From a virus, in IMG/VR virus record IMGVR_UViG_3300047472_000033, positions 1-56,249 of that record: 56,249 nt of DNA. The stretch is one strand, 5' to 3'. This document shows positions 11,691-42,733 of the stretch, piece by piece. The notes beneath the pieces were generated by a model. It searched no databases and was not told where the DNA came from. It saw only the letters and a program-made list of their open reading frames with translations. Every line of letters starts with the position of its first letter. Position 1 is the stretch's first letter. Both the position numbers and the translations under genes were made by a program.

Positions 11691-11733
11691 CGCAGGAAAA
11701 ACACGGGCTTTAATGAGACCCCTCTACGAAAGG
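11690..11733 (+). promoter_or_regulatory. Start-associated promoter element 3
   Basis: TCGCAGG, A-rich spacer, TTTAAT at 11709-11714, then GAGACCCCTCTAC (two extra bases compared with the consensus) and GAAAGG before the ATG at 11740. Confidence 0.7.
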
Positions 11734-12390: not shown

Positions 12391-12427
12391 TCAAAGCCCA
12401 CTCCCCCTACACGGGGTTTGGGTTTCG
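12391..12427 (+). terminator. Cassette terminator 4
   Basis: CCCC, TACAC loop, GGGG (12413-12416) then TTTGGGTTT, with an outer AAAGCCCA arm able to pair with TGGGTTT. Typical of the cassette terminators. Confidence 0.7.
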
Positions 12428-23587: not shown

Positions 23588-26500
23588 GTGACGCTGGACT
23601 TCATTCAGTTCATCACGAAGGAAACCAAAAACGGGATCGAAGTAAGACCCGATTTCGTGGTTGGTCGTTCTACGGATCTGATGGTCCAGGGTGGGGCATT
23701 TTACGCCATCTGGAACGAAGAGAAGAAGCTTTGGTCCAGAGACGAGTACGACGTACAGAAACTCGTTGATGCGGAAGTCAAGGCGTTCGCCGAGGAATAT
23801 GTGGAGAAGGGCGTTGAGGTAGCTCCCAAGTACCTCAAGAACTTCGCCAATGGTGGGTGGAAGCAGTTCCGTGCGTTCGTCAAGAACGTCAGTGACAACT
23901 CCCACCCCCTCGACACGAGACTGACTTTCGCTGATACGAAGACTAAGAAGTCGGACTATGCCAGCCGTCGACTCTCCTACATCCTTGCTCCGGGCGATAT
24001 CAGTGCCTACGATGAACTAGTCAGTCTCCTGTACTCCGAAGAGGAGCGCGAGAAGTTCGAGTGGGCTATCGGTGCCATCATCTGCGGTGACGCCAAGAAG
24101 ATTCAGAAATTCTTGGTGTTCTACGGCAAGGGTGGTACCGGTAAGTCAACCATCATGGATATCGTGTTCCTGTTGCTCGGGGGCAAGGTCTCTGATGGTG
24201 GGTATGTCGCGATGTTCGACGCTAAGTCTCTCGTGGGGAATAACGGCGCCTTTGCTACGGAGGCGTTCAAGGACAACCCGCTGGTTGCCATTCAGCAGGA
24301 CGGTGACCTGTCCAAGATCGAAGACAACTCCAAGTTGAACTCGATCATTTCTCACGAGGACATGCGGGTCAACGAGAAGTACAAGGCGACTTACGACACC
24401 AAGGTCAATGCATTCCTCTTCATGGGCACCAATAAGGCCGTGAAGATCTCGGACGCAAAGTCTGGTCTTATCCGTCGCCTTATCGACGTCAACCCTACCG
24501 GTGAAACCCATTCGCCGGATCGATATTTCACGCTTGTCGACAGGTTGAAGTTCGAGCTGGGCGGGATCGCTTATCACTGCCTCCAGGTCTACAAGACCCT
24601 TGGTAGGAATTACTACAGCGATTATCGCCCTGAGAACATGATGCTCAAGACCAACGTGTTCTACAACTACATCGACTGGTACCGAGACATCTTCAAGGCT
24701 CAGGACGGCACGACCCTGAAGCAGGCATGGGAGCTTTATCTCGAATACGCGAAGGAAGCGGAACTCGAGTTCAAAACCCCTCGCCATATCTTCGGGGAAG
24801 AGTTGAAGAACTACTTCCACGAGTTCCATGAGCGTCGTCCCATGCCAGACGGATCACACCCCCGGAAGGTTTATGTTGGGTTCAAGAATCCCAACCCGTT
24901 CAAGGCGCCTGTGGACAAGGCTCATAAGATCTTCACTCTGGTTCTGGAAGAAACCGAATCACTCCTAGACGAGATGTATGCTGGGCTGCCTGCTCAGTAC
25001 ACGTCGAAGGCCGGAACCCCGAAGAGCAAGTGGGAAAGCGTCAAGACTACCCTTGGCGATATCGACACTCAGCAGCTGCATTACCTCAAGGTCCCCGAGA
25101 ACCATATCGTCATCGACTTCGACTTGAAGGACGAGAACGGGGAAAAGTCGCTAGAGGCGAACCTCATTGAGGCTAGCAAATTCCCGCAGACCTATGCCGA
25201 GGTGAGTAAGAGCGGCAACGGTGTTCACCTGCATTACATCTATGATGGGGACGTATCCGATCTCGCTCGGGTATATTCCGACAACATCGAGATTAAGGTC
25301 TACACCGGAAACTCTTCGCTTCGACGCCAGCTGACGTGGTGCAACAACGTAGCGGTGGCCACGATCAACGGCGGTCTGCCCTTCAAGGAGAATAAGTCAA
25401 TGCCCGCGTCCAAGTCCATGATGCAGACCGAGCAGGGCATCCGAGCCCTTATCGCCAAGAACCTTAGGAAGGGGGTCCACCCCGGCACCAAGCCCTCGAT
25501 GGAGTTCATCGAGCATATCCTCAAGGAAGCCAACAAGAACGGCGTCATTTATGACGTCAGCGACATGTTCCAGAAGATGTTCGCCTTCTGCAACAACAGC
25601 AAGAAGAACTCCGAGTACTGCATGACGATCCTCGAGCGGCTTCAGTTGAAGTCGGAGAAGTCATTCGACGAGATCGAAGAGGCTGAGAAGCCTTACGAGT
25701 CGGTGGCAGAGGCTGAGAAGCAGATCGTATTCTTCGACTGCGAGGTGTACCCCAACCTTTTCGTGGTCTGCTGGAAGTACCTCGGTACGCCGAACTCCAG
25801 TGTCGTCTCGATGATCAACCCGACGCCGGCCGAGATCGAACAGTTCATCTACTCGAACAAGCTCATCGGCTTCAACAACCGATCCTACGACAACCATATC
25901 CTCTGGGCTCGGTTCCTCGGATGTGACAACGAGGCTCTCTACGAGCTCTCGCAGCGGATCATCACCAAGAAGGACCAGAACGCCAAGTTCGGTCAGGCGT
26001 ACAGCATTTCCTACGCCGACGTGTACGACTACAGCTCCACCAAGATGGGCCTGAAGAAGTGGGAGATCTTCCTCGGCATTCCTCACGTCGAGATGGATAT
26101 TCCATGGGACAAGCCGGTCCCGGAGAAGCTGTGGACCAAGGTCGTCAACTACTGCATCAATGACGTCAACGCCCTGGAAGCGGTCTTCAACTACTGCAAG
26201 CAGGACCTAGTTGCTCGTGAGATCCTGGCGAGCATGAGTGGGCTGTCGGTCAACAACCCGACTCGGCAGCACGCGATCAAGATCATCTTTGGGGACGATC
26301 GAACCCCTCAGTCGAAGTTCGTGTACACGGACCTCTCCGAGATGTTTCCTGGGTACAAGTTCGACCCGTACTCCAAGAACGAGAAGAGTACCTACAGGGG
26401 CGAGGTCGCCGGCGAGGGTGGCTACGTCTATGCCGAGCCTGGCATCCACAAGAACGTCGCGCTCCTGGATGTCGCTTCGATGCACCCCACCTCGATCGAG

Positions 26501-27517
26501 GAGTTGAACCTCTTCGGTCCATACACGACGAAGTTCTCGGCTCTGAAGAACGCTCGTCTCGCTCTTAAGAACGGTGAGTACGAGTCGATCAAGGATATTC
26601 TCCCCTGGGAGATCGAAGGGGTCAAGAGCGACGCAGATGCCTCGGCTCTGTCGGACGCCCTGAAGCTCGTGATCAACTCGGTCTATGGGTACACCTCTGC
26701 CAAGTTCGAGAACCCGTTCAGGGACCCGCGCAACATCGACAACATCGTCGCCAAGCGTGGTGCTCTGTTTATGATCGACCTGAAGCACGCGATTCAGGAA
26801 CAGGGGTTTACGGTCGCTCACATCAAGACCGACTCCGTCAAGATCCCCAACGCGACGCCGGACATCATCGCCTTCGTCCAGGAGTTCGGTGCCAAGTACG
26901 GCTACACGTTCGAGCACGAGGCCACCTACGAGAAGATGTGCCTCGTGAACGACGCTGTGTACGTCGCTTACGAGAAGGAGTCTGTCAAGAAGGGCAAGAC
27001 GGTCCCGGCCCACTGGACAGCTACTGGAGCGGAGTTCAAGCACCCGTACGTCTTCAAGACCCTCTTCACCAAGGAACCCATTTCCTGGGCAGATCTGGGC
27101 GAGACCAAGATGGTCAAGGAGGGTGCTATGTACCTCCGGTACCCCGAAGGTCAGATGGAGGTCGGGCAGGAAGAGGTCACGGAGAACGGCGATATTCACA
27201 TCGGCCGCTCTGGTCTGTTCATCCCCGTCAACCCCATGCAGAGCGACATCGTGGGCGGTCAGCTCCTTCGCATCAAGGACGGCAGGGAGTACGCCGTTAC
27301 GGGTACCAAGGGCTACAAGTGGGTCGAGGAAGACACGGTACGGCAGCGCTACGGCGACGCCATCGATCGTCTGACCTTCGAGCGCTTCGATCAGTCCGAG
27401 GTCGGTACCGGAGGGATCCGGGACATCGTCGACGAGATGTATTATAACCAGCTCGCCGAGAACGCGGCTCAGTCCATCATGGAATTCGGTGACTTCGACG
27501 AATTCGTGACGGTCTGA
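23588..27517 (+). CDS. Fused SF3 helicase - AEP-type primase - family B DNA polymerase
   Basis: 1309 residues from GTG 23588 (site AGAAAGGAGG). Domains in order: N-terminal region about 1-150; SF3/P4-type helicase about 150-330 with Walker A GKGGTGKST near 180 and an acidic QQDGDL motif near 235; archaeo-eukaryotic-type primase about 470-600 with IDFDLKD near 508 and SGNGVHLHYIY near 542; 3'-5' exonuclease about 710-860 with FDCEVYPN, IGFNNRSYDN and YCINDV; family B polymerase about 900-1240 with motif A LLDVASMHP near 960, motif B LVINSVYG near 1027 and motif C IKTDSV near 1079. It appears to hold unwinding, priming, synthesis and proofreading in one chain. Motifs are seen directly; activities are inferred. 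Confidence 0.85.
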   Translation: MTLDFIQFITKETKNGIEVRPDFVVGRSTDLMVQGGAFYAIWNEEKKLWSRDEYDVQKLVDAEVKAFAEEYVEKGVEVAPKYLKNFANGGWKQFRAFVKNVSDNSHPLDTRLTFADTKTKKSDYASRRLSYILAPGDISAYDELVSLLYSEEEREKFEWAIGAIICGDAKKIQKFLVFYGKGGTGKSTIMDIVFLLLGGKVSDGGYVAMFDAKSLVGNNGAFATEAFKDNPLVAIQQDGDLSKIEDNSKLNSIISHEDMRVNEKYKATYDTKVNAFLFMGTNKAVKISDAKSGLIRRLIDVNPTGETHSPDRYFTLVDRLKFELGGIAYHCLQVYKTLGRNYYSDYRPENMMLKTNVFYNYIDWYRDIFKAQDGTTLKQAWELYLEYAKEAELEFKTPRHIFGEELKNYFHEFHERRPMPDGSHPRKVYVGFKNPNPFKAPVDKAHKIFTLVLEETESLLDEMYAGLPAQYTSKAGTPKSKWESVKTTLGDIDTQQLHYLKVPENHIVIDFDLKDENGEKSLEANLIEASKFPQTYAEVSKSGNGVHLHYIYDGDVSDLARVYSDNIEIKVYTGNSSLRRQLTWCNNVAVATINGGLPFKENKSMPASKSMMQTEQGIRALIAKNLRKGVHPGTKPSMEFIEHILKEANKNGVIYDVSDMFQKMFAFCNNSKKNSEYCMTILERLQLKSEKSFDEIEEAEKPYESVAEAEKQIVFFDCEVYPNLFVVCWKYLGTPNSSVVSMINPTPAEIEQFIYSNKLIGFNNRSYDNHILWARFLGCDNEALYELSQRIITKKDQNAKFGQAYSISYADVYDYSSTKMGLKKWEIFLGIPHVEMDIPWDKPVPEKLWTKVVNYCINDVNALEAVFNYCKQDLVAREILASMSGLSVNNPTRQHAIKIIFGDDRTPQSKFVYTDLSEMFPGYKFDPYSKNEKSTYRGEVAGEGGYVYAEPGIHKNVALLDVASMHPTSIEELNLFGPYTTKFSALKNARLALKNGEYESIKDILPWEIEGVKSDADASALSDALKLVINSVYGYTSAKFENPFRDPRNIDNIVAKRGALFMIDLKHAIQEQGFTVAHIKTDSVKIPNATPDIIAFVQEFGAKYGYTFEHEATYEKMCLVNDAVYVAYEKESVKKGKTVPAHWTATGAEFKHPYVFKTLFTKEPISWADLGETKMVKEGAMYLRYPEGQMEVGQEEVTENGDIHIGRSGLFIPVNPMQSDIVGGQLLRIKDGREYAVTGTKGYKWVEEDTVRQRYGDAIDRLTFERFDQSEVGTGGIRDIVDEMYYNQLAENAAQSIMEFGDFDEFVTV

Positions 27518-30817: not shown

Positions 30818-30973
30818 ATGGAACCGACACCTATGGAATGGCTCCTAGCCTACTGGGTCTTGTTGGCTGCTGCTATATTCGGAGCGGCCTTCCTCGTGAT
30901 CGGGATACTCCGACTTATCGAGGAGATCGGATTCAGGCTGGAGCGTCGCAGATACCGTCGTGCACGAATGTGA
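30818..30973 (+). CDS. Small membrane protein
   Basis: 51 residues: MEPTPMEWLLAYWVLLAAAI, then FGAAFLVIGILRLIEEIGF and a very basic tail (RLERRRYRRARM). Single span with strongly positive cytoplasmic end. Starts a few bases after the preceding gene, GATATCC leader. No family recognised. Confidence 0.58.
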   Translation: MEPTPMEWLLAYWVLLAAAIFGAAFLVIGILRLIEEIGFRLERRRYRRARM

Positions 30974-34265: not shown

Positions 34266-34664
34266 ATGTCAGAAGATGTTGTGAACCACCCGTCGCACTA
34301 CACCCACTACAAGGGTGTGGAAGTGATAGAGATCACGCGAGAGATGAACTTCAACCTTGGCAATGCGGTGAAGTACATCGCAAGGGCCGGCCTGAAGGAT
34401 CCGTCCAAGGAGGTCGAGGATCTGCAGAAAGCGATCTTCTACATCAAGGACGAACTGGCTCGTGGTGTGTTCCCCGAAGAGCCGGATGATCTGGAAAGCG
34501 CTTGGGGGGACAAGGTGTATGAGTTGGCTTCACAGATGAGTGTGAACCGGCAAGAAGCCGTGGAATACATCTGCATGGGGTCGGCAGCCTCTCTCCAGTA
34601 CGCGTACAACTTCCTCGACAGGGAGATCGAAGAGCTGAAGAACCGGGGCTTGGGGAAGTCTTAG
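34266..34664 (+). CDS. DUF3310 (SaV-like) protein
   Basis: 132 residues. The N-terminal NHPSHYTHYKGVEVIEITRE, then LGNAVKYIARAGLKDP and a DLQKAIFYIKDEL helix, is the hallmark of the phage DUF3310/SaV family, which is found near nucleotide-metabolism and replication genes in many phages and has no firm function. It has its own promoter/operator and an AAAAGGAACGG ribosome site. The C-terminal about 50 residues are an added helical region. Confidence 0.8.
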   Translation: MSEDVVNHPSHYTHYKGVEVIEITREMNFNLGNAVKYIARAGLKDPSKEVEDLQKAIFYIKDELARGVFPEEPDDLESAWGDKVYELASQMSVNRQEAVEYICMGSAASLQYAYNFLDREIEELKNRGLGKS

Positions 34665-34717
34665 TTCTTCGGTAGCAATACCCACGCAAGCACGATCCAG
34701 ACAGGGGACCCACCATC

Positions 34718-35416
34718 ATGTCCAACACGCCCATATTCGACCAGCTGTCCAACGAGCGTAACTACGACCGCATGCTCGCGTCCTTCCCGAAGCGTCAGAT
34801 GCCCAGCTTCTTCGCCAAGCGTGAAGAGACCATAGTCGAGGCGAAGGTCCTCGAGCCCGACCCGTACCTGGACGGCCCGTTTGAGTGCATCAACGTGCAG
34901 GAGCCGGAGGAAGAGGTCCTTGCTGTGCCGTTCGTCAAGATAGATGGCATACCGCGGGGTACTGGTTCTCCGTTCCAGAGGTTCGAGCGCGAGGGCTGTG
35001 CTTCGTCCACCAACTTCGAGCAGAAGAACCTCGATCTCTTCTCCAGGGCCAAGGCTGATGAGGAGTTCGACCCGCTCGATTTCACGAACTTCGATTTCTA
35101 CGCCTTCCTTCGGACCAGCGTCGAGAACTTCGTGAAGGAGCACCCCAACGCGAGGAACATCGAGATCTCTAGCCGCCAAGAGCTTGACGGAACGATGACC
35201 CTGGGCATAGAGGGTATGGTGCCCACTCATGACCTTGTGGAGGGCATGGGAGATGTTCTGGCGGACGTTCGTGACGCGTTCCGACAGGAACACCCCGGAG
35301 CTGTCATGACGGCTGTGACGGCCATGGAGGAGCACGAGGACGGTAGCGCAACGCTCACGGTCGAGGGGCAGTCGCTCATTCCCGTAAAGCCGCTTTCCGA
35401 GAGGAACACGGCGTAA
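34718..35416 (+). CDS. Hypothetical protein
   Basis: 232 residues. Acidic throughout, with FPKRQMPSFFAKREETIVEA, a linker, and a C-terminal domain (VENFVKEHPNARNIEISSRQ, then two parallel TLTVEG/TLGIEGM strands). It precedes the helicase gene closely and may be a helicase partner. Ribosome site CAGGGGA. No named family. Confidence 0.62.
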   Translation: MSNTPIFDQLSNERNYDRMLASFPKRQMPSFFAKREETIVEAKVLEPDPYLDGPFECINVQEPEEEVLAVPFVKIDGIPRGTGSPFQRFEREGCASSTNFEQKNLDLFSRAKADEEFDPLDFTNFDFYAFLRTSVENFVKEHPNARNIEISSRQELDGTMTLGIEGMVPTHDLVEGMGDVLADVRDAFRQEHPGAVMTAVTAMEEHEDGSATLTVEGQSLIPVKPLSERNTA

Positions 35417-35431
35417 CCAACGGAGTAGTTC

Positions 35432-36625
35432 ATGCTTAACCTATACGACCATCAGAAGGCTGCCATTGCCAAGATGGGGAATGGCAAGATCCTCTATGGC
35501 GATGTAGGTACTGGTAAGTCCCGCACGGCCGCGGGTTACTACCTGCAGAGGGAAGCGCCAAAGGACGTCTACGTGATCACGACAGCGAAGAAGAGGGATT
35601 CCCTCGACTGGGAGAACGAGTTCGCCATGGCCGGCGTGTTCACACATTCACGTGGACCTGTCGCCGGTAAGCTCACTGTCGATTCGTGGAACAACATCGC
35701 GAACTACAAGAACGTCCGCGGCGCTTTCTTCATCTTCGACGAGCAGAGACTCGTCGGCAGTGGTGCTTGGACAAAGGCCTTCGAATTCATAGCGAAACAC
35801 GGGAACAACTGGATCTTGTTGACAGCCACCCCCGGGGATAATTGGCTGGATTACATGTCCGTGTTCATCGCGAATGGGTTCTACAAGAACAGGACCGAGT
35901 TCAAGCAAGACCATGTGGTGTATGACACCTACGCGAAGTTCCCGAAGGTTAAGGGATACCTGAACGTGGGTAAGCTAGTCCGTCTGCGTGCGTCCATCAT
36001 GGTGCACATGCCGTTCGAGAGGCACACCACAAGGGCCACGCACGAGGTCGAAGTGCAGTTCGACGAAGTCATGATGAAGAGAGTCACCAGGGACCGCTGG
36101 AACCCCTATGAGGACCGGCCGATCAGATCCTTGGCCGAGTACTTCTACATCATGCGTAAGGTCGTCTACTCGCATCCTAGCCGGCTTCACTGGGTCCGCC
36201 AGACCATGGAGAAGCACCCCAAGCTCATCGTGTTCTACAACTTTGACTACGAGCTCGAGATCCTTCGGACGCTGTCCAAGGAAGTGCCGATGGCGGAGTG
36301 GAATGGGCACAAGCACGAAGAGATTCCGGACACGGATGAGTGGGTGTACTTGGTCCAGTACACCTCTGGGTCTGAAGGCTGGAACTGTACGTCTACAGAT
36401 GCGACGCTCTTCTACTCGATGACGTACTCGTACAAGCAGTGGCACCAGTCGCACGGACGCATCGATCGCCTCAACACCAAGTACACACTTCTGCACTACT
36501 ACACGTTGCTGTCAGAGGCAACAATCGACAAGGGGGTGAAGAAAGCATTGGGTGAGAAACGGAACTTCAACGAGTCAGTATTCGTCAAAAATGCGCTGCC
36601 TTTAGCCTACACCAAGGCGGCGTGA
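35432..36625 (+). CDS. Superfamily 2 DNA helicase (DEAD/SNF2-like)
   Basis: 397 residues. Helicase motifs in order: Q-like DHQKAAI near 6, motif I GDVGTGKS near 23, motif II FDEQ near 103, motif III LTATP near 130, motif V SGSEGWN near 311, motif VI QSHGRIDRLNT near 339. It is a compact two-RecA-domain SF2 translocase as found in many phages, where members help replication initiation, recombination or branch migration. It sits next to the repeat-rich putative origin, consistent with an initiation role. That role is inferred. Confidence 0.85.
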   Translation: MLNLYDHQKAAIAKMGNGKILYGDVGTGKSRTAAGYYLQREAPKDVYVITTAKKRDSLDWENEFAMAGVFTHSRGPVAGKLTVDSWNNIANYKNVRGAFFIFDEQRLVGSGAWTKAFEFIAKHGNNWILLTATPGDNWLDYMSVFIANGFYKNRTEFKQDHVVYDTYAKFPKVKGYLNVGKLVRLRASIMVHMPFERHTTRATHEVEVQFDEVMMKRVTRDRWNPYEDRPIRSLAEYFYIMRKVVYSHPSRLHWVRQTMEKHPKLIVFYNFDYELEILRTLSKEVPMAEWNGHKHEEIPDTDEWVYLVQYTSGSEGWNCTSTDATLFYSMTYSYKQWHQSHGRIDRLNTKYTLLHYYTLLSEATIDKGVKKALGEKRNFNESVFVKNALPLAYTKAA

Positions 36626-36654
36626 AAGAAGGGCCAAAAAGGTGGTATCACGAG

Positions 36655-36679
36655 GTCTTTACATTAGGCCAAACTAGGG
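36655..36679 (+). repeat. Iteron-like 25-bp repeat, copy 1
   Basis: Identical to 36784-36808. Core TTTACATTAGGCCAAACTAG. Confidence 0.85.
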
Positions 36680-36783
36680 TGTTTAGCGGCGAACTAGGAC
36701 AAACGCTATGCAGACTAGGACAAATTGGTATACCACCTTTTTGGCAACTTGCCAGTTATTTTTGGCAAGTGAGACGACCGGAC

Positions 36784-36808
36784 GTCTTTACATTAGGCCA
36801 AACTAGGG
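36784..36808 (+). repeat. Iteron-like 25-bp repeat, copy 2
   Basis: Identical to 36655-36679 at a spacing of 129 bases. Confidence 0.85.
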
Positions 36809-36992
36809 CGACTACGGACAAACCAGGGCGATCGCTACGTAAAGTAGGACATTTTGAAGAGGCGCCAGAAGCCCCTTGCCAAATAAGTGGCAAATCTTGC
36901 CAAACTGGCAAGCAAACTGGTATACCAAACTGTCCTTAAATGTCCGTTTCGTGATTTCTAAAACCGCAGGTCAGAGCGTTGCGCTGTTTTTG

Positions 36993-37014
36993 CTTGCCAG
37001 TTTGCCACTTTTTT
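36993..37014 (+). repeat. 22-bp perfect inverted repeat, left arm
   Basis: CTTGCCAGTTTGCCAC followed by six T; exact reverse complement of 37085-37106. The 70 bases between the arms are extremely A-rich (including A12), a plausible unwinding element. Confidence 0.85.
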
Positions 37015-37084
37015 TAGTATAAACTTTTGAAAAAAAAAAAAGAGGAACAGATACCGTACACGTTCATTTAAAAAGTTTTGCTCG

Positions 37085-37106
37085 AAAAAAGTGGCAAACT
37101 GGCAAG
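37085..37106 (-). repeat. 22-bp perfect inverted repeat, right arm
   Basis: Six A followed by GTGGCAAACTGGCAAG; exact reverse complement of 36993-37014. Confidence 0.85.
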
Positions 37107-37120
37107 CGATTTTTCGGCGT

Positions 37121-37144
37121 CCGTTTTGTCCTAATGTAAAGACC
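37121..37144 (-). repeat. Inverted iteron-like copy 3
   Basis: CCGTTTTGTCCTAATGTAAA carries the reverse complement of the TTTACATTAGG core (one change in the GGCC part). Confidence 0.75.
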
Positions 37145-37180
37145 AAAAACAGGCACCAGCGAGCAGGCAGCTCGAAATGT

Positions 37181-37203
37181 CCGTTTTGGCCTAATGTAAA
37201 GCC
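37181..37203 (-). repeat. Inverted iteron-like copy 4
   Basis: CCGTTTTGGCCTAATGTAAA is the exact reverse complement of TTTACATTAGGCCAAA plus flank. Copies 1-2 and 3-4 thus face each other across about 500 bases. Confidence 0.8.
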
Positions 37204-37227
37204 GCGCAATCAGAAAGTGAACCAAAC

Positions 37228-37719
37228 ATGCAAGAGTGGCGTGAGATTGTCGAGTTCCCGGGCTACTCGGTAAGTAGCGGCGGCCTCATCCGTAACGACG
37301 CGACTGACCGAATAATGGCTCAGTCCCCCAACACTCGAGGCATAGCCACCGTGGGACTCACGAGGCTGGGTGTTCAGTACAAGCGGTCTGTCTCCGTCTT
37401 GGTCGCTGATGCCTTCATCCTTCACGCGAAGAGCTTTCAGTTCAACACCACCATCAACCTCGATGGTGATCGGTTCAACAACGAAGTAAGCAATCTCGCA
37501 TGGCGCCCTCTCTGGTTCGCTAGGAGGTACAACCAGCAGTTTGAGATCGGTCCTCAAGGATTCGGTCGTCCCATCGAAGAAGTGGAAACAGGTGAGCAGT
37601 TTGCTAACTCTTGGCTCGCAGCAATTACACGGGGCGTACTAGAGCGTGAGATCGTGTTCTCGGTCATGAGGCGAACGTGGGTCTTCCCGATCTACAGAAC
37701 CTTCCGAGTCCTCGATTAA
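37228..37719 (+). CDS. NUMOD4/HNH-like protein with degenerate active site
   Basis: 163 residues. Opens with the NUMOD4 pattern EWREIVEFPGYSVSSGGLIR, followed by an HNH-type core (VLVADAFI, then INLDGDRFNNEVSNLAW). Active relatives usually have NHIDGDxxNNxxxNLxW; here the catalytic His position reads Asn (INLDGD), so cleavage activity is doubtful. Such genes are often mobile homing endonucleases. Its position next to the putative origin is notable. It could now be only a DNA-binding protein. Confidence 0.7.
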   Translation: MQEWREIVEFPGYSVSSGGLIRNDATDRIMAQSPNTRGIATVGLTRLGVQYKRSVSVLVADAFILHAKSFQFNTTINLDGDRFNNEVSNLAWRPLWFARRYNQQFEIGPQGFGRPIEEVETGEQFANSWLAAITRGVLEREIVFSVMRRTWVFPIYRTFRVLD

Positions 37720-37745
37720 AACAGATACCGTAGAGGCGAAATTAC

Positions 37746-37765
37746 ACGGGGTATAATAGAAGGGG
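37746..37765 (+). promoter_or_regulatory. Promoter before the nuclease/RNA-polymerase-like operon
   Basis: ACACGGGGTATAATAGAAGG with TATAAT at 37752-37757. As in the cassette elements an ACACGG block directly precedes the -10 and no -35 is obvious. A 13-base sequence AACAGATACCGTA at 37720-37732 just upstream is repeated in the origin region (37046-37058). Confidence 0.6.
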
Positions 37766-37805
37766 TAAGATAAGCCTCCCGTTTCGTCGATGAAAGAGGT
37801 GACAC

Positions 37806-38093
37806 ATGAAGGAATCTGAGTTCCAAACGAAGCTGATCAAAAAGCTTCGACACATGTTTCCTGACTGTGTCATACTCAAGAATGACCCCAGCTACTTGCA
37901 AGGCGTACCGGACCTCGTGATCTTTCACGGAGCCCGGTACGCCTTTCTCGAAGTCAAAGCGAGTGAGACCGCACCGTTCCGGCCGAACCAGCCTTACTAC
38001 CTTGAGCTGTTGAACGGCATGTCCTTCGCTGAAGCTATCTACCCTTCGAACGAACAGGAAGTACTCGATGAACTCGCAAGAGTATTCGGGTAG
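37806..38093 (+). CDS. VRR-NUC family nuclease
   Basis: 95 residues, GAAAGAGGTGA ribosome site. Minimal VRR-NUC domain: N-terminal E-x(4)-L helix (KESEFQTKLIKKLRHMFP), GVPDLVIF near 33-40 with the catalytic Asp, and FLEVKA near 48-53 with the E-x-K. Stand-alone VRR-NUC proteins are common in phages and cut DNA junctions or ends. It starts an operon with a second PD-(D/E)xK nuclease. Confidence 0.85.
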   Translation: MKESEFQTKLIKKLRHMFPDCVILKNDPSYLQGVPDLVIFHGARYAFLEVKASETAPFRPNQPYYLELLNGMSFAEAIYPSNEQEVLDELARVFG

Positions 38094-38103
38094 AGGGTGA
38101 TCG

Positions 38104-38715
38104 ATGAGTCTCGAAATCGTAAGGTTCGACGGATTCAACGCTCACTCAAGGCTAGACGGCTCACACGCCTTTCTCAGCCCCTCGAACTACCACTGGCTAA
38201 ACTACCCTCCAGACAAGCTCCTCGAGCGTCTAAGGACTGCTCAAGCTGCTTCTGAGGGTACCGAGCTCCATCTGCTTGCCGCGCTCAACATCAAGCACGG
38301 TACCAAGCTTATGGAGACAGACGAGAACAAGACGCTGTGGCTCTACGTCAACGACTGCATTCGATTCGGCATGTCACCCGAGCAGACCTTGTTCTACTCG
38401 ATGAACTGCTACGGTACGGCCGATGCTATCGGATTCGCACCAAACGAAGATGGCGAGAAGTACGCCGGCTACCTTCGCATCAGTGACCTGAAGACGGGTC
38501 TGACGAAGGCATCGGATAAGCAGCTCTACATCTACGCAGGGCTGTTCTGTCTGGAGTACGGCTACCTCCCGTATGAAATCGAAGGCGAACTCACCATCTA
38601 CCAGAACGGTCACCGAAACATCACTTTGATTGATCGGAACTTTCTGGCGTTCGTGTACGACAAGATCCAAACCTCACATGAGACCATCGAGAACTCGAAG
38701 GGAGGACTGCTGTGA
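38104..38715 (+). CDS. RecB/Cas4-like PD-(D/E)xK exonuclease
   Basis: 203 residues. Catalytic motifs GTADAIGF near 103, ISDLKTG near 127 (D-x-K) and QLYIYA near 140 (Q-x3-Y of the RecB family) are present and correctly spaced; a helical N-terminus carries an HLLAALNIKHG segment. No Fe-S Cys cluster is seen. It likely processes ends for recombination or replication together with the VRR-NUC protein upstream. Confidence 0.8.
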   Translation: MSLEIVRFDGFNAHSRLDGSHAFLSPSNYHWLNYPPDKLLERLRTAQAASEGTELHLLAALNIKHGTKLMETDENKTLWLYVNDCIRFGMSPEQTLFYSMNCYGTADAIGFAPNEDGEKYAGYLRISDLKTGLTKASDKQLYIYAGLFCLEYGYLPYEIEGELTIYQNGHRNITLIDRNFLAFVYDKIQTSHETIENSKGGLL

Positions 38716-41405
38716 TCATTGACGAAGAACATCGAGACGATCTAGTCATCGATGAAGAAGACCACCTCACGCATTACGGCATCCTCCGTAAGTCGGGTCG
38801 GTATCCATGGGGTTCTGGTGAAACTCCTCACGAGCGGGCCAACTCCTTCCTCGGTTACCTCAAGAGTTTCCGTAAAGAAGGAATGACCGACACTGAGATT
38901 GCTCATGCGTGGGGTATGACCACGTCTCAGCTTCGTGACACCGTCTCAATAGCGAATGAGGCGAAGAAGACTGCTGACATCGCTCAGGCTATGAAGCTGA
39001 AATATGATGTTGGCATGTCCAACGTCGCCATCGGTAAGAAGATGGGCATTGGCGAGTCCAGTGTTCGCTTGCTCCTGAAGCAGGGAGAAGCCGATAGGCA
39101 GCCGATTCTGGATACTACTGCTGAGATGCTTCGTCAAGAGGTAGCCAGCAAGAAGTACATCGATGTAGGTCGAGGCGTTGAGGTCCAACTTCACATCAGT
39201 GAGAAGAAGCTCAAGACCGCGGTCTCAGTCCTCAAGGAAGAGGGCTACAGCTTCCACTACATCCAAGTCCCCCAACTTGGAACCGGTAAGAAGACCAACA
39301 TAAAGGTGTTGTCTGCTCCGGGCACCACGTATGCCGAGGTCTCCAAGAACAAGGCTGAGATCAAGCAGATCCGTAAGAGCAGCCGAGATGGTGGTCGTTC
39401 TTACGATGAGATCCTTCCACCCATCTCGATCGATTCGAAAAGGGTCAAGGTTCGTTATGCCGAAGAAGGCGGAACTGATGCGGACGGCACGATCTATGTC
39501 CGCCCTGGCGTAAAAGACGTTTCCCTTGGAAGCGCCAAATATGCACAGGTTCGCATCGCTGTTGACGGTAGCCACTACCTCAAGGGTATGGCCCTCTACA
39601 GAGATGATCTGCCTGCCGGTGTAGACCTAGTGTTCAACACGAACAAGAAGAACACCGGGAATAAGCTGGATGCCATGAAGCCGATGAAGAAGGATCCTGA
39701 CGATCCTTTCGGTTCCATGATCGCTGACCAGCTCAAGGAGATGGGCCCTGATGGGAAGCTCCGCCCGAGTTCAGTAATGAACATCGTCAACCAGGAGGGC
39801 AACTGGGATGAGTGGTCCAAGACACTCTCGTCTCAGATGTTGTCGAAGCAGAAGCCTAGCCTTGCGGACCATCAGCTTGCGCTGACCCGTGAAGCCAAGC
39901 AGCGCGAGTTCGACACGATCATGAGTCTCACCAATGAGACCGTTAAGAAGCACCTTCTGGAGAAGTTCGCTGACGAGACTGATTCAGCTGCCGTTCACCT
40001 CAAGGCGGCGCACCTTCCTCGACAGAAGACGAAGGTAATACTTCCGATCAACTCGATGAAGGAAACCGAGATCTATGCACCGTCCTTCCGAGATGGTGAA
40101 AAAGTAGTTCTCGTTCGGTTCCCTCATGGACACATCTCTGAGATCCCTGAGCTCACCGTCAACAACCGTCACCCCGAAGCCAAGAAGATTCTTGGTAATG
40201 CACCTGATGCTGTCGGCATCCACCATGCGGTTGCCGAACGTCTCTCTGGTGCAGACTTCGATGGTGACACTGTACTTGTCATCCCGAACAACCTAGGCAA
40301 GGTCAGGAACAAGGCTCAGCTTGAGGAACTGAAGGGTTTCGATCCTCAGTCCGAATACAAGGGTTACCCTGGCATGCCCCAGATGACATCTCAGCAAAAG
40401 GGTAGTGAGATGGGGAAGGTTTCCAACCTCATCACGGACATGACTGCCCTTGGCGCACCTGACGCTGAGATCGCGCGAGCGCTCAAGCATTCCATGGTCG
40501 TCATCGATGCTGAGAAGCATGGGCTGGATTACAAGCGCTCTGCCATCGAGAATGGTATCCCAGCCCTGAAGAAGAAGTATCAGGGTGGTGCTACCAGAGG
40601 CGCTGCAACAATCGTGTCTAGGGCCAAGTCTACTGAGCGAGTGCTCGATAGAAAGCCCCGATCCGCCAAGGAAGGCGGACCGATTGACAGGGCTACTGGA
40701 AAACTGGTTTACACAGAGACCGGCGCTGAGTACACCAATGGCAACCCGAAGATGATCAAGTCTACGAAGCTTGCCGAAACGCACGATGCGCACACACTGG
40801 TTTCTGATCACCAGGCTCCTATCGAGAAGATCTATGCAGATCACTCGAACGCCCTTAAGAAGATGGCTAACGATGCGAGGTTGGCAACCCTCGACATCAA
40901 GGGAATCGTTCGCTCCCCCTCTGCCGCGAAAGCGTATGAGAAGGAAGTGAAGGATCTGGAAGCATCCCTCCAGGAGGCTCTCAGGAACGCCCCCTATGAG
41001 AGACAAGCCCAGCTCCTAGGTAACGCCATCTACCAGCTCAAGAAAGAATCGAATCCTGACCTGGACGATGCCGATCTGAAGAAGCTCAAGGCAAAGGCCA
41101 TTAAGGAAGCTCGTCTCAGGGTGGGTGCTGAAAAGCAGTCCATCGACATCACGCCCAAGCAATGGGAAGCCATCCAGGCTGGAGCTATCAGTAAGACACA
41201 GCTCGAGCACATCCTTGACAACACAGACGTGGACAAGATCAAGGAACTGGCTACACCTAGGGACAAGCCGGTTATGAGTGTGGCTGATAAGAACCGCGCT
41301 CTTCTCCTGCTTCGTGATGACAAGTACAGCCTTGCTGACGTGGCTGATCAGCTTGGTGTATCGGTGTCCACTCTAACTGCAGCCATGCGTGGTGATGCAG
41401 CATGA
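38712..41405 (+). CDS. YonO-like single-chain RNA polymerase candidate (DFDGD motif)
   Basis: 897 residues from GTG 38712 (GTGA overlap). The segment with LVRFPHGHISEIPE followed by HAVAERLSGADFDGDTVLVI matches the second double-psi beta barrel of the beta-prime RNA polymerase subunit, in which R-x-P, then N-ADFDGD binds catalytic Mg; the three Asp are residues 515, 517 and 519. Length and motif fit the YonO/crAss-like one-chain polymerases. The N-terminus has an LTHYGILRKSGRYPWGSGE tag-like stretch (19-37), then two predicted helix-turn-helix-like segments (MTDTEIAHAWGMTTSQLRD and SNVAIGKKMGIGESSVRLLL). A third similar HTH is at the C-terminus. Polymerase activity is inferred. Confidence 0.7.
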   Translation: MIIDEEHRDDLVIDEEDHLTHYGILRKSGRYPWGSGETPHERANSFLGYLKSFRKEGMTDTEIAHAWGMTTSQLRDTVSIANEAKKTADIAQAMKLKYDVGMSNVAIGKKMGIGESSVRLLLKQGEADRQPILDTTAEMLRQEVASKKYIDVGRGVEVQLHISEKKLKTAVSVLKEEGYSFHYIQVPQLGTGKKTNIKVLSAPGTTYAEVSKNKAEIKQIRKSSRDGGRSYDEILPPISIDSKRVKVRYAEEGGTDADGTIYVRPGVKDVSLGSAKYAQVRIAVDGSHYLKGMALYRDDLPAGVDLVFNTNKKNTGNKLDAMKPMKKDPDDPFGSMIADQLKEMGPDGKLRPSSVMNIVNQEGNWDEWSKTLSSQMLSKQKPSLADHQLALTREAKQREFDTIMSLTNETVKKHLLEKFADETDSAAVHLKAAHLPRQKTKVILPINSMKETEIYAPSFRDGEKVVLVRFPHGHISEIPELTVNNRHPEAKKILGNAPDAVGIHHAVAERLSGADFDGDTVLVIPNNLGKVRNKAQLEELKGFDPQSEYKGYPGMPQMTSQQKGSEMGKVSNLITDMTALGAPDAEIARALKHSMVVIDAEKHGLDYKRSAIENGIPALKKKYQGGATRGAATIVSRAKSTERVLDRKPRSAKEGGPIDRATGKLVYTETGAEYTNGNPKMIKSTKLAETHDAHTLVSDHQAPIEKIYADHSNALKKMANDARLATLDIKGIVRSPSAAKAYEKEVKDLEASLQEALRNAPYERQAQLLGNAIYQLKKESNPDLDDADLKKLKAKAIKEARLRVGAEKQSIDITPKQWEAIQAGAISKTQLEHILDNTDVDKIKELATPRDKPVMSVADKNRALLLLRDDKYSLADVADQLGVSVSTLTAAMRGDAA

Positions 41406-41653
41406 GCGTACTACTCAGTACCAAGGACAATCCATACAACCCACACACAGAGTGGGATGAGTGGCTGTCGTGGGACACCGACCATGGGTACCACACACTA
41501 TCTCTACTCGGTCGTGTGGTTCGCTCATCTGATGAACTCTCCGAGTACTGGCAACAGAGAGCAATCGAGGATGCGATGAATGAGATCGTGTCCTACAACG
41601 TGTCTGGCCAACACATCCTAGTCGAACCTCCAAAAGAGGTAGAGACTCCTTAG
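41402..41653 (+). CDS. Small hypothetical protein
   Basis: 83 residues, ATGA overlap with the RNA-polymerase-like gene. Trp/Tyr-rich (TEWDEWLSWDTDHGYHTLSL) with an acidic C-terminus. Coupling suggests a polymerase partner, for instance an inhibitor or sigma-like factor, but nothing in the sequence proves this. Confidence 0.6.
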   Translation: MSVLLSTKDNPYNPHTEWDEWLSWDTDHGYHTLSLLGRVVRSSDELSEYWQQRAIEDAMNEIVSYNVSGQHILVEPPKEVETP

Positions 41654-41658
41654 CAAGT

Positions 41659-41750
41659 CGGAGATCAGACGAAGTCAAGGCTCGTTAATCAGACGTCACA
41701 AGGCGTCGCGGGCCAACCTCTCGGGCAAAGAGAACTTCGTCTGATCTCCG
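41659..41750 (+). ncRNA. Long-stem structured RNA or DNA element
   Basis: Perfect 17-bp arms CGGAGATCAGACGAAGT and ACTTCGTCTGATCTCCG enclose 58 bases with room for two small hairpins (GACG...CGTC and CTCT...AGAG), giving a branched structure. ATCAGACG is repeated inside the loop, offering alternative pairing. No T run follows at once, so it is not a simple terminator. It could be an RNA processing signal, a regulatory RNA or part of the packaging site. Confidence 0.5.
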
Positions 41751-41796
41751 GCTGTCACCAGGTACATGGGTCGCAACTTTTTGTCTAAAAAATCTT

Positions 41797-41816
41797 GAGA
41801 CCGGGGGAGGGGTCTC
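41797..41816 (+). promoter_or_regulatory. GAGACC/GGTCTC hairpin or operator
   Basis: GAGACC, eight G/A bases, GGTCTC. It includes GGGGTCTC, eight bases of the complement of the cassette leader motif, and may be recognised by the same factor. Confidence 0.4.
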
Positions 41817-41985
41817 GCAAAATCAGACCCCCCTCTGCATCGCCGCCCTCCATATTTTTCCCCCGGCGGGAATTTTCGCCAAAACTTTTTGACCCCGAGG
41901 CATCACCCCAGTGAAACGAGCTAACGTGAAGCCCCTGTAACCCCGGGATTACTTGTCATGAACCCATCGAAAGGGGGTGTGATCC

Positions 41986-42333
41986 ATGGCCCAACGCCAG
42001 AGAAGAGAACCAGAACCCAGCGATGCTCAGCGAGTGCCAGCCACGACCCCAATGGGCCGAGAGAACCGAATGGTTTCTCTAGCTGCAGACCTTGCAGAAC
42101 AGCAACTGAGGGATGGTACAGCCTCGGCCCAGGTGATCACACACTACCTGAAGCTAGGTTCCTCAAGAGAGATACTCGAACAGCAGCGACTGAGACACGA
42201 GAACGAACTCCTTGCTGCTAAAAGGGAGTCTCTGGCTTCCCAGCAACGAGTTGAAGAACTTTACGTCAAGGCTATCGGTGCCATGCGAGCTTACAGCGGT
42301 CATGGTCCGGTGGAGGAAGACGATGAGCAATAG
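41986..42333 (+). CDS. Small terminase subunit
   Basis: 115 residues. The core (MVSLAADLAEQQLRDGTASA, VITHYLKLGSSREILEQQRL, ENELLAAKRESLASQQRVEE) is the actinophage small-terminase pattern: a helix-turn-helix-like segment, then a charged oligomerisation helix, and a disordered acidic end. It recognises the packaging site, probably the structured region directly upstream. It overlaps the HNH gene by 11 bases. The large subunit is separated from it by five genes. Confidence 0.7.
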   Translation: MAQRQRREPEPSDAQRVPATTPMGRENRMVSLAADLAEQQLRDGTASAQVITHYLKLGSSREILEQQRLRHENELLAAKRESLASQQRVEELYVKAIGAMRAYSGHGPVEEDDEQ

Positions 42334-42733
42334 GTCGTATTCGGAAGTCCTCAAACTCAGGACATTCGAAGAGCGATTCCACTACCTTTCTCTCCGCGGG
42401 AATGTTGGCGAGGCAACTTTCGGCTTCGACCGTTATCTCAACCAACAGTTCTACACGTCGAAAGAGTGGAGAGATCTCCGACACCACATCATTGTTCGAG
42501 ACAATGGCTGTGACCTTGGTATCGATGGGTATGAGATCCACGACGCCATTTACATCCACCATCTCAACCCAATGACCGTTGCTCAGATCGAGTCTGGCGA
42601 CCCCCGCATCCTCGACCCAGACAATCTTATCTCGGTAACCCACCGAACACACAACGCCATTCACTACGGCGATGAGAGACTACTCCCAGGTAAGCTCATC
42701 GAACGAAGGCCTGGCGACACGAAACTCTGGTGA
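42323..42733 (+). CDS. HNH endonuclease (packaging-associated)
   Basis: 136 residues from ATG 42323. HNH core: FYTSKEWRDLRHHIIVRDNG, then IYIHHLNP, DPDNLISVTHRTHNAIHYG with the catalytic His pair and terminal H. HNH proteins beside terminases are required for cos cleavage in HK97-like phages (gp74 family). Intact motifs distinguish it from the degenerate copy at 37228. Confidence 0.85.
   Translation: MSNRSYSEVLKLRTFEERFHYLSLRGNVGEATFGFDRYLNQQFYTSKEWRDLRHHIIVRDNGCDLGIDGYEIHDAIYIHHLNPMTVAQIESGDPRILDPDNLISVTHRTHNAIHYGDERLLPGKLIERRPGDTKLW

Follow-up and report, generated by a model that had tools for sequence, protein, structure and literature searches.

Gene order at the locus

The window (the whole stretch of DNA that was analyzed, IMG/VR record IMGVR_UViG_3300047472_000033) is a phage sequence of 56,249 bases with a direct terminal repeat of 127 bp. 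Matches to its replication and packaging genes were found in Streptomyces phages such as Bing, Rima, Scarif, and Kardashian. The genes and the intergenic gap considered here are as follows.

23588-27517 (+), helicase-primase-DNA polymerase in a single chain (phrog_4210 over the full length; DUF5906)
34718-35416, hypothetical protein gene directly before the helicase gene
35432-36625 (+), DNA helicase (phrog_62, 1.3e-62)
36626-37227, helicase-HNH intergenic gap from the helicase stop to the HNH start, with repeat excess and the lowest GC content of the genome; probable replication origin/control region
37228-37719 (+), HNH-annotated protein, the proposed switch (NUMOD4 and an I-HmuI-like fold without the catalytic residues, C-terminal DNA-binding-type domain; varies with the central element)
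37806-38093 (+), VRR-Nuc-type nuclease (phrog_93 endonuclease, 9e-13; copies in relatives are named VRR-Nuc)
38104-38715 (+), Cas4/RecB-like exonuclease (phrog_3953 exonuclease; copies in relatives are named Cas4 family exonuclease)
38712-41405 (+), RNA-polymerase-like protein (phrog_4291; DFDGD motif; Sigma70_r4_2/HTH_23 at the C-terminus)

The single chain of 1309 amino acids combines the DUF5906 domain, primase-like matches, and a DNA polymerase. In several relatives, its Walker-A part gave a short second match about 2.5 to 3 kb upstream of the polymerase gene, for example at 36235-36402 in Bing and 2519-2689 in pSt2402. The RNA-polymerase-like protein contains the motif SGADFDGD and has helix-turn-helix domains (HTHs) at both its ends; proteins of this kind presumably resemble the YonO/QDE-1 polymerases.

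Repeats and base composition of the gap

The first-pass annotation had described the gap as an iteron-like, AT-rich putative replication origin in which two direct and two inverted copies of a long repeat face each other. All four copies were located, together with the palindromes and short elements listed below.

36658-36673 (+), TTTACATTAGGCCAAA copy 1, lineage-specific repeat
36726-36735, palindrome TGGTATACCA, a possible variant of the element site, with the same TATACCACC as in the element of relative L009
36787-36802 (+), TTTACATTAGGCCAAA copy 2
36918-36927, palindrome TGGTATACCA, second copy
36941-36946 (+), TGTCCG element
36966-36980 (+), GCAGGTCAGAGCGTT, containing AGGTCA
37125-37140 (-), TTTACATTAGGACAAA copy 3, inverted
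37178-37183 (+), TGTCCG element, second copy
37185-37200 (-), TTTACATTAGGCCAAA copy 4, inverted

Three copies of the long repeat read TTTACATTAGGCCAAA and one reads TTTACATTAGGACAAA, and TTTACATTAGG occurs nowhere else in the window. The shorter units exist as described, their number of "more than half a dozen" being slightly generous: TAGGnCAAA was counted six times in the gap, four of them within the long repeats. Eleven of the 35 TTGCCA units of the window lie in the gap, on both strands. The palindromes at 36726 and 36918 are those stated earlier, and the A-tract corresponds to a run of 12 A at 37030-37041. Two short elements recur among the gaps compared, AGGTCA in 24/42 (shuffles, at most 13) and TGTCCG in 31/42 (shuffles, at most 12).

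The repeat density of the gap is real and far above chance: it holds 122 repeated 9-mer pairs, whereas none of 1087 other windows of equal size exceeds 27 and none of 300 dinucleotide shuffles exceeds 10. The reported AT-richness was borne out as well, the GC content being 44.5% in the gap versus 55.7% in the genome. The 150 bp with the lowest GC content of the genome begin at 36999, inside the gap.

Conserved core and its 8-bp units

The longest inverted repeat, missed in the first pass, consists of 41-nt arms that are 83% complementary and enclose the AT-rich center.

36992-37032, left arm of the conserved core, with tandem 8-bp units TTGCCAGT TTGCCACT; equivalent paired units in relatives
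37030-37041 (+), A12 tract of the AT-rich center
37047-37058 (+), central element ACAGATACCGTA, proposed site 1 of the HNH-like protein, from the pairing test with the promoter copy
37067-37107, right arm of the conserved core, with AAAAAGTTTT and AGTGGCAA ACTGGCAA; equivalent paired units in relatives

The conserved core thus spans 36992-37107 and comprises paired 8-bp repeats in inverted arms and an AT-rich center with a GATACC-type element. When the gaps were aligned on the central GATAYY, most of them shared one plan: a tandem 8-bp pair, a T-rich run, the center, AAAAAGTTTT, an A-rich run, and an inverted tandem pair. The 8-bp unit itself differs among relatives (TTGCCACT, TAGACACT, CTGTCAGT, and TTAGTCAT). 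The 7-mers of the arms were found at 29.4 per kb in the own flank versus 10.0 in the flanks of other genomes (28 loci; 0/20000 permutations), own-flank copies being absent at 5/28 loci. Such joint variation of the arm units and the single copies in the flanks is expected if one protein reads the whole repeat family.

Six proteins were compared with the 8-bp repeats as their possible readers. No clear signal was obtained for the helicase, HNH-like, VRR, Cas4-like, and RNA-polymerase-like proteins (27 to 28 loci) or for the helicase-primase-polymerase (18 loci), and the initiator is therefore missing from this set. A possible candidate partner of the 8-bp repeats is the hypothetical protein encoded upstream of the helicase, which shows 69 and 64% identity where its neighbors have about 90% or more. 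Its gene (34718-35416) changes faster than any other in the module, and even close relatives differ in it by large insertions and deletions.

Conservation of the locus among relatives

A helicase end followed by a downstream HNH start was found in 60 of the 89 sequences examined. Two carried the helicase without a downstream HNH gene (L030 and Arthrobacter phage Qui, L206), and in the rest, the helicase or the HNH match was absent from the stretch compared. All seven Gordonia phages examined in addition have, in this order, the helicase, gap, HNH gene, VRR-Nuc-type nuclease, exonuclease, and a large last gene. The locus, previously called unusual for a siphovirus, is instead conserved in this phage type.

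The absence of the repeats from close relatives had been named as evidence that would speak against an origin. It was observed for TTTACATTAGG, which does not occur in the gaps of close relatives such as Bing and Rima; these repeats are lineage-specific and lie outside the common pattern, whereas the locus itself is retained. In a scan of viral contigs with TTTACATTAGGnCAAA, a facing pair was present among the 80 matches listed only in L099, L103, and L107, which are contigs of helicase relatives, and the other 77 hold one copy each.

Repeated 9-mer pairs were also counted in the homologous gaps of 12 named relatives. No window equals the gap in Bing, SendItCS, ClubPenguin, and Madamato, and 1 to 32 windows do so in Scarif, LibertyBell, Moozy, Rima, SscP1EGY, pSt2402, and Kardashian. 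The gap of RosaAsantewaa is not repeat-rich, with 1 pair and 362/837 windows that equal or exceed it.

Evidence for a probable replication origin

The lowest-GC 150 bp of the genome lie inside the gap in 13/13 complete genomes (the window and 12 relatives), as expected of an AT-rich melting region beside the repeats of an iteron origin. The maximum of the detrended cumulative GC skew was located -0.4 to +2.9 kb from the gap in 13/13 genomes. At four-fold degenerate sites, the 10 kb upstream were less C-rich than the 10 kb downstream in 13/13 genomes (Bing being a tie), and the cumulative maximum fell 0.3 to 2.1 kb from the gap in 10/13 and elsewhere in Bing, Kardashian, and ClubPenguin. The skew extremum expected at the gap is thus close to it, with those three exceptions at four-fold sites, but it is a maximum, opposite in sign to the usual bacterial origin. 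Given this sign and the relatedness of the genomes, the skew supports a boundary of strand asymmetry and is not by itself a mark of an origin.

Iteron-type origins are arrays of directly repeated sites of about 17 to 22 bp. Here, the 16-bp repeats are two direct and two inverted copies confined to a lineage, and the conserved units are 8 bp long, two per arm, in inverted arms, unlike classical plasmid iterons of about 20 bp. An origin is still the best reading of the gap, partly supported by its place in the replication module, the lowest GC content, the inverted repeats around an AT-rich center, and the skew maximum; the classical iteron form and the conservation of the motif were not upheld. 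On balance, it is fairly probable that the gap at 36626-37227 functions as a putative replication origin. No papers on a replication origin in these phages were found in open-licence full text and, to our knowledge, few actinobacteriophage origins have been mapped.

The central element and its promoter copy

A second copy of the central element lies after the HNH gene, upstream of a -10 hexamer.

37721-37732 (+), second element copy ACAGATACCGTA, proposed site 2
37752-37757 (+), -10 hexamer TATAAT, 22 nt after the 8-nt element

A promoter-like element was present between the HNH and VRR-Nuc genes in 28/28 Streptomyces-type loci, with an AGATACC-type word, an ACAYG stretch, and a TATGAT-type -10 in this order. 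After the elements of 48 loci were phased by eye, the word was found exactly 22 nt before a TATAAT-like hexamer (at least 4/6 matches to TATAAT) in 44 of them, 7 Gordonia phages included. A generic sigma-70 scan of 34500-42500 gave nothing above chance (2 found, 3.4 expected); it did not report the hexamer at 37752, where there is no -35 of that type.

The two element copies differ between genomes yet agree within a genome, reading CCTATACCACC in L009, ACTTTCTACCTAG in L021, TAACTAACTATTAAC in L047, and CCGTGTATTAAG in Odesza. Promoter elements matched their own core at 9.85/12 positions on average and other cores at 8.35/12 (55 loci; 0/20000 permutations), and five control slices from the same promoters showed no signal. 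The automatic choice of elements used 55/57 loci, L050 and L054 being left out by length limits; with hand phasing, the outcome was unchanged, both for 42 loci and for 16 divergent ones among them. The Gordonia phages alone are too uniform to test the pairing well, the own match being clearly best only in Odesza. The joint variation of the core element and its promoter copy across genomes is a new finding.

Variation of the HNH-like protein with the element

Distances between elements were compared with those between the five proteins of the module at 42 of the 60 gap loci. Ten duplicates or near-duplicates (L007, L010, L013, L017, L026, L028, L029, L042, L195, and L196) and eight loci with no clear element, an odd gap, or a near-duplicate (L020, L022, L023, L025, L050, L052, L054, and L063) were left out. 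The HNH-like protein correlated with the element at r 0.70 and, with the mean of the other four proteins as the control, at partial r 0.48 (0/5000 label permutations, which leave shared ancestry in the correlations). The partial r was 0.07 for the helicase, 0.15 for VRR (217/5000), -0.17 for the Cas4-like protein, and 0.01 for the RNA-polymerase-like protein. Since the Cas4-like protein has diverged about as much as the HNH-like protein (mean 0.51 versus 0.55), speed alone does not explain the link.

The effect persisted at a lower strength in the Streptomyces-type subset (partial r 0.20, 43/5000) and in the deep subset (partial r 0.32, 79/5000); in a less redundant set, the partial r was 0.47 for the HNH-like protein (0/5000) and 0.24 for VRR (33/5000). 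In a scan by 8 residues, 55 of the best 74 windows fell in the HNH-like protein, and the columns of the five proteins most tied to a CC versus another ending of the element, R5, R37, Q50, and V57, all belong to it. We consider it likely that the element and the HNH-like protein are linked, this protein varying most clearly with the element of the five.

Fold and active site of the HNH-like protein

A profile of 47 members, built from 46 of 49 HNH references and the window (L001, L025, and L063 were left out), matches I-HmuI at 5e-11, and NUMOD4 was found in 46/47 members. The structure model of the window protein has a mean pLDDT of 96.7. Its residues 2-108 superimpose on I-HmuI (1u3e) with Z 13.0 and rmsd 2.1 over 104 residues, and the protein has the NUMOD4/HNH fold. 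Residues 113-163 align with the small DNA-binding domain 8b6e (Z 6.4, 49 residues) and with I-TevI 1i3j (Z 4.5, rmsd 1.4, 43 residues), Z values that can arise by chance.

The catalysis of I-HmuI relies on D74, H75, and N96 (PMC12724721). The window protein has I76, N77, and A98 at these positions. Over the 49 aligned proteins, the D74 position is occupied by I in 42, V in 6, and L in 1, with D kept in 0; H is kept at the H75 position in 12; and the N96 position holds A in 45, V in 2, T in 1, and S in 1, with N kept in 0. The N96 pairing is our own reading, for which the printed I-HmuI alignment was extended ungapped by a few residues with what we take to be the I-HmuI residues around N96. With its catalytic residues replaced, the protein is predicted to bind DNA and not to cut it in the manner of I-HmuI. 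The gap has the position originally given, between helicase and nuclease genes, but the "nuclease" probably binds the central element without cutting DNA, which would make the locus a control region, too.

Proposed mechanism and alternative explanations

From the computed anatomy of the locus, its conservation, the 22-nt spacing, the joint variation of the element copies and the HNH-like protein, the fold, and the catalytic loss, we infer a scheme in which DNA binding by this protein, origin firing, activation or repression, and the order of events would be as follows. The two tandem 8-bp repeat pairs face each other across an AT-rich center that would melt, and a separate repeat-binding initiator protein would open this center for the single-chain helicase-primase-polymerase of the phage. 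The HNH-like protein would have two binding sites, the GATACC-type element of the origin core and its second copy, which is situated at about -40 of the promoter driving the VRR-Nuc, Cas4-like exonuclease, and RNA-polymerase-like genes. One protein at both sites would couple the state of the origin with the expression of the downstream operon. The element in place of a -35 suggests activation, the alternative being repression, as by I-TevI.

We lean slightly toward this whole picture, in which the gap is an origin and control region with a domesticated HNH-fold protein as the likely switch. The HNH-annotated protein would then probably be a domesticated, non-cutting DNA-binding switch that joins the probable origin with the VRR-Nuc/Cas4-like/RNA-polymerase-like operon. 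More tentatively, an inactive homing endonuclease may have been recruited as the specificity factor of the origin; the word that it binds, both in the core and at the operon promoter, would diverge together with the protein. On this reading, the phages of Streptomyces, Gordonia, and Rhodococcus would each have a private code for origin and promoter.

Somewhat unlikely is a gap that serves as a control region only, that is, an operator or enhancer array through which the HNH-like protein would regulate its own gene and the next operon while replication starts elsewhere. The firmest evidence does concern the promoter element and its likely binder, and with I-TevI there is a known case of an endonuclease acting as a repressor at its own promoter (PMC2988022). 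However, the lowest GC content of the genome at the gap in 13/13 genomes, the skew extremum, and the inverted paired repeats would be left unexplained, and a few genomes inspected by eye showed no -10 at 22 nt downstream of the core element.

The repeats could also be promoters or binding sites of the RNA-polymerase-like protein, which would prime or transcribe from the gap, and its terminal HTHs make it a conceivable reader. Between Bing and pSt2402/SscP1EGY, where the repeats differ, the N-terminal HTH is among the locally divergent patches. This suggestion was not supported across 28 loci, at which neither HTH tracks the repeats, and the second HTH is contradicted by L004 and L005, whose repeats differ while the second HTH helix is common to both. 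As the central element is not tracked either (42 loci, partial r 0.01), we regard this explanation as improbable.

A selfish insertion, in the form of an active homing endonuclease gene with target sites of its own on both flanks, would account for the HNH annotation, the I-HmuI homology at 5e-11, and the site copies on either side of the gene; the replaced catalytic D, H, and N positions and the presence of the gene at the same place in syntenic relatives, unlike a sporadic insertion, make it very improbable. A plasmid-type centromere or partition site is harder still to credit despite the dense ordered repeats, since no partition protein was seen among the selected ORFs scanned and Abafar, another phage of the paper on Scarif, is called virulent without lysogeny genes (PMC11536984). 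That the long nested inverted repeat of the core encodes a structured RNA or terminator is the least credible reading, as there is no Rfam match in the window and the flanks hold single units in both orientations that change with the arms, a pattern that fits protein sites on DNA.

Comparison with known systems

The proposed origin and control region has partial counterparts in phage T4. I-TevI is a homing-endonuclease protein that binds a site copy overlapping a promoter (PMC2988022), and its C-terminal DNA-binding domain resembles residues 113-163 of the HNH-like protein (at a Z of 4.5, which can be chance). In contrast, I-TevI has GIY-YIG nuclease activity and acts on its own gene, whereas here an HNH fold has lost its catalytic residues, and its two proposed sites are at the promoter of the following operon and in an origin-like core. 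In T4, MotA sits at -30 of the middle promoters, which make up oriF and oriG when combined with an A+T-rich unwinding element (PMC3016281). Common to both would be a viral factor site replacing the -35, an ordinary -10, and the inclusion of an A+T-rich unwinding element in one control system; here the factor would be the HNH-like protein with its site at about -40, and the promoter and the AT-rich core are ~0.7 kb apart. The middle-promoter form is recognizable in the exact 22-nt distance at 44/48 loci, the activator role being putative.

The likeness to I-HmuI (1u3e) is one of fold over residues 2-108 and of sequence profile; D74, H75, and N96 are replaced and the gene is fixed and syntenic rather than intron-borne. 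Iteron origins of plasmids and phages, such as the P1 type, have ordered repeats beside an AT-rich stretch, as does the gap, in which the units are instead 8 bp long, form inverted tandem pairs, and vary between relatives, and no known Rep was found.

With the gap, a large group of sequenced phages gains a specific origin candidate that can be tested, and the gene routinely annotated as "HNH endonuclease" in them is suggested to encode a regulator that does not cut. Matched variants of protein and site occur here as a natural series, from which the DNA recognition of HNH/NUMOD4 folds could be decoded and which could explain how related phages avoid origin cross-talk within one cell.

Other repeated elements of the window

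A third AGATAYC site (AGATACC) is located at 30950, at the end of a small coding frame, and among relatives, its C/T state seems to vary with the class of the element. Promoter-like repeats with TCGCA upstream, ACAYG, TATAAT, and GAGACC were found at 11700, 12435, 14228, 14626, and 14920 (+), and all 12 relatives scanned have one or more similar copies. They share the extended -10 of the promoter at 37752 and lack the GATACC-type element. The DUF6353 protein is encoded twice in the genome (16937-17716 and 21297-22235). A terminator- or leader-like sequence, ACACGGGGTTT(G/A)GGTTT with a C run before it, occurs in six copies at 12409, 13976, 14875, 15186, 16248, and 20008 (+), compared to 0 to 2 copies in the 12 relatives.
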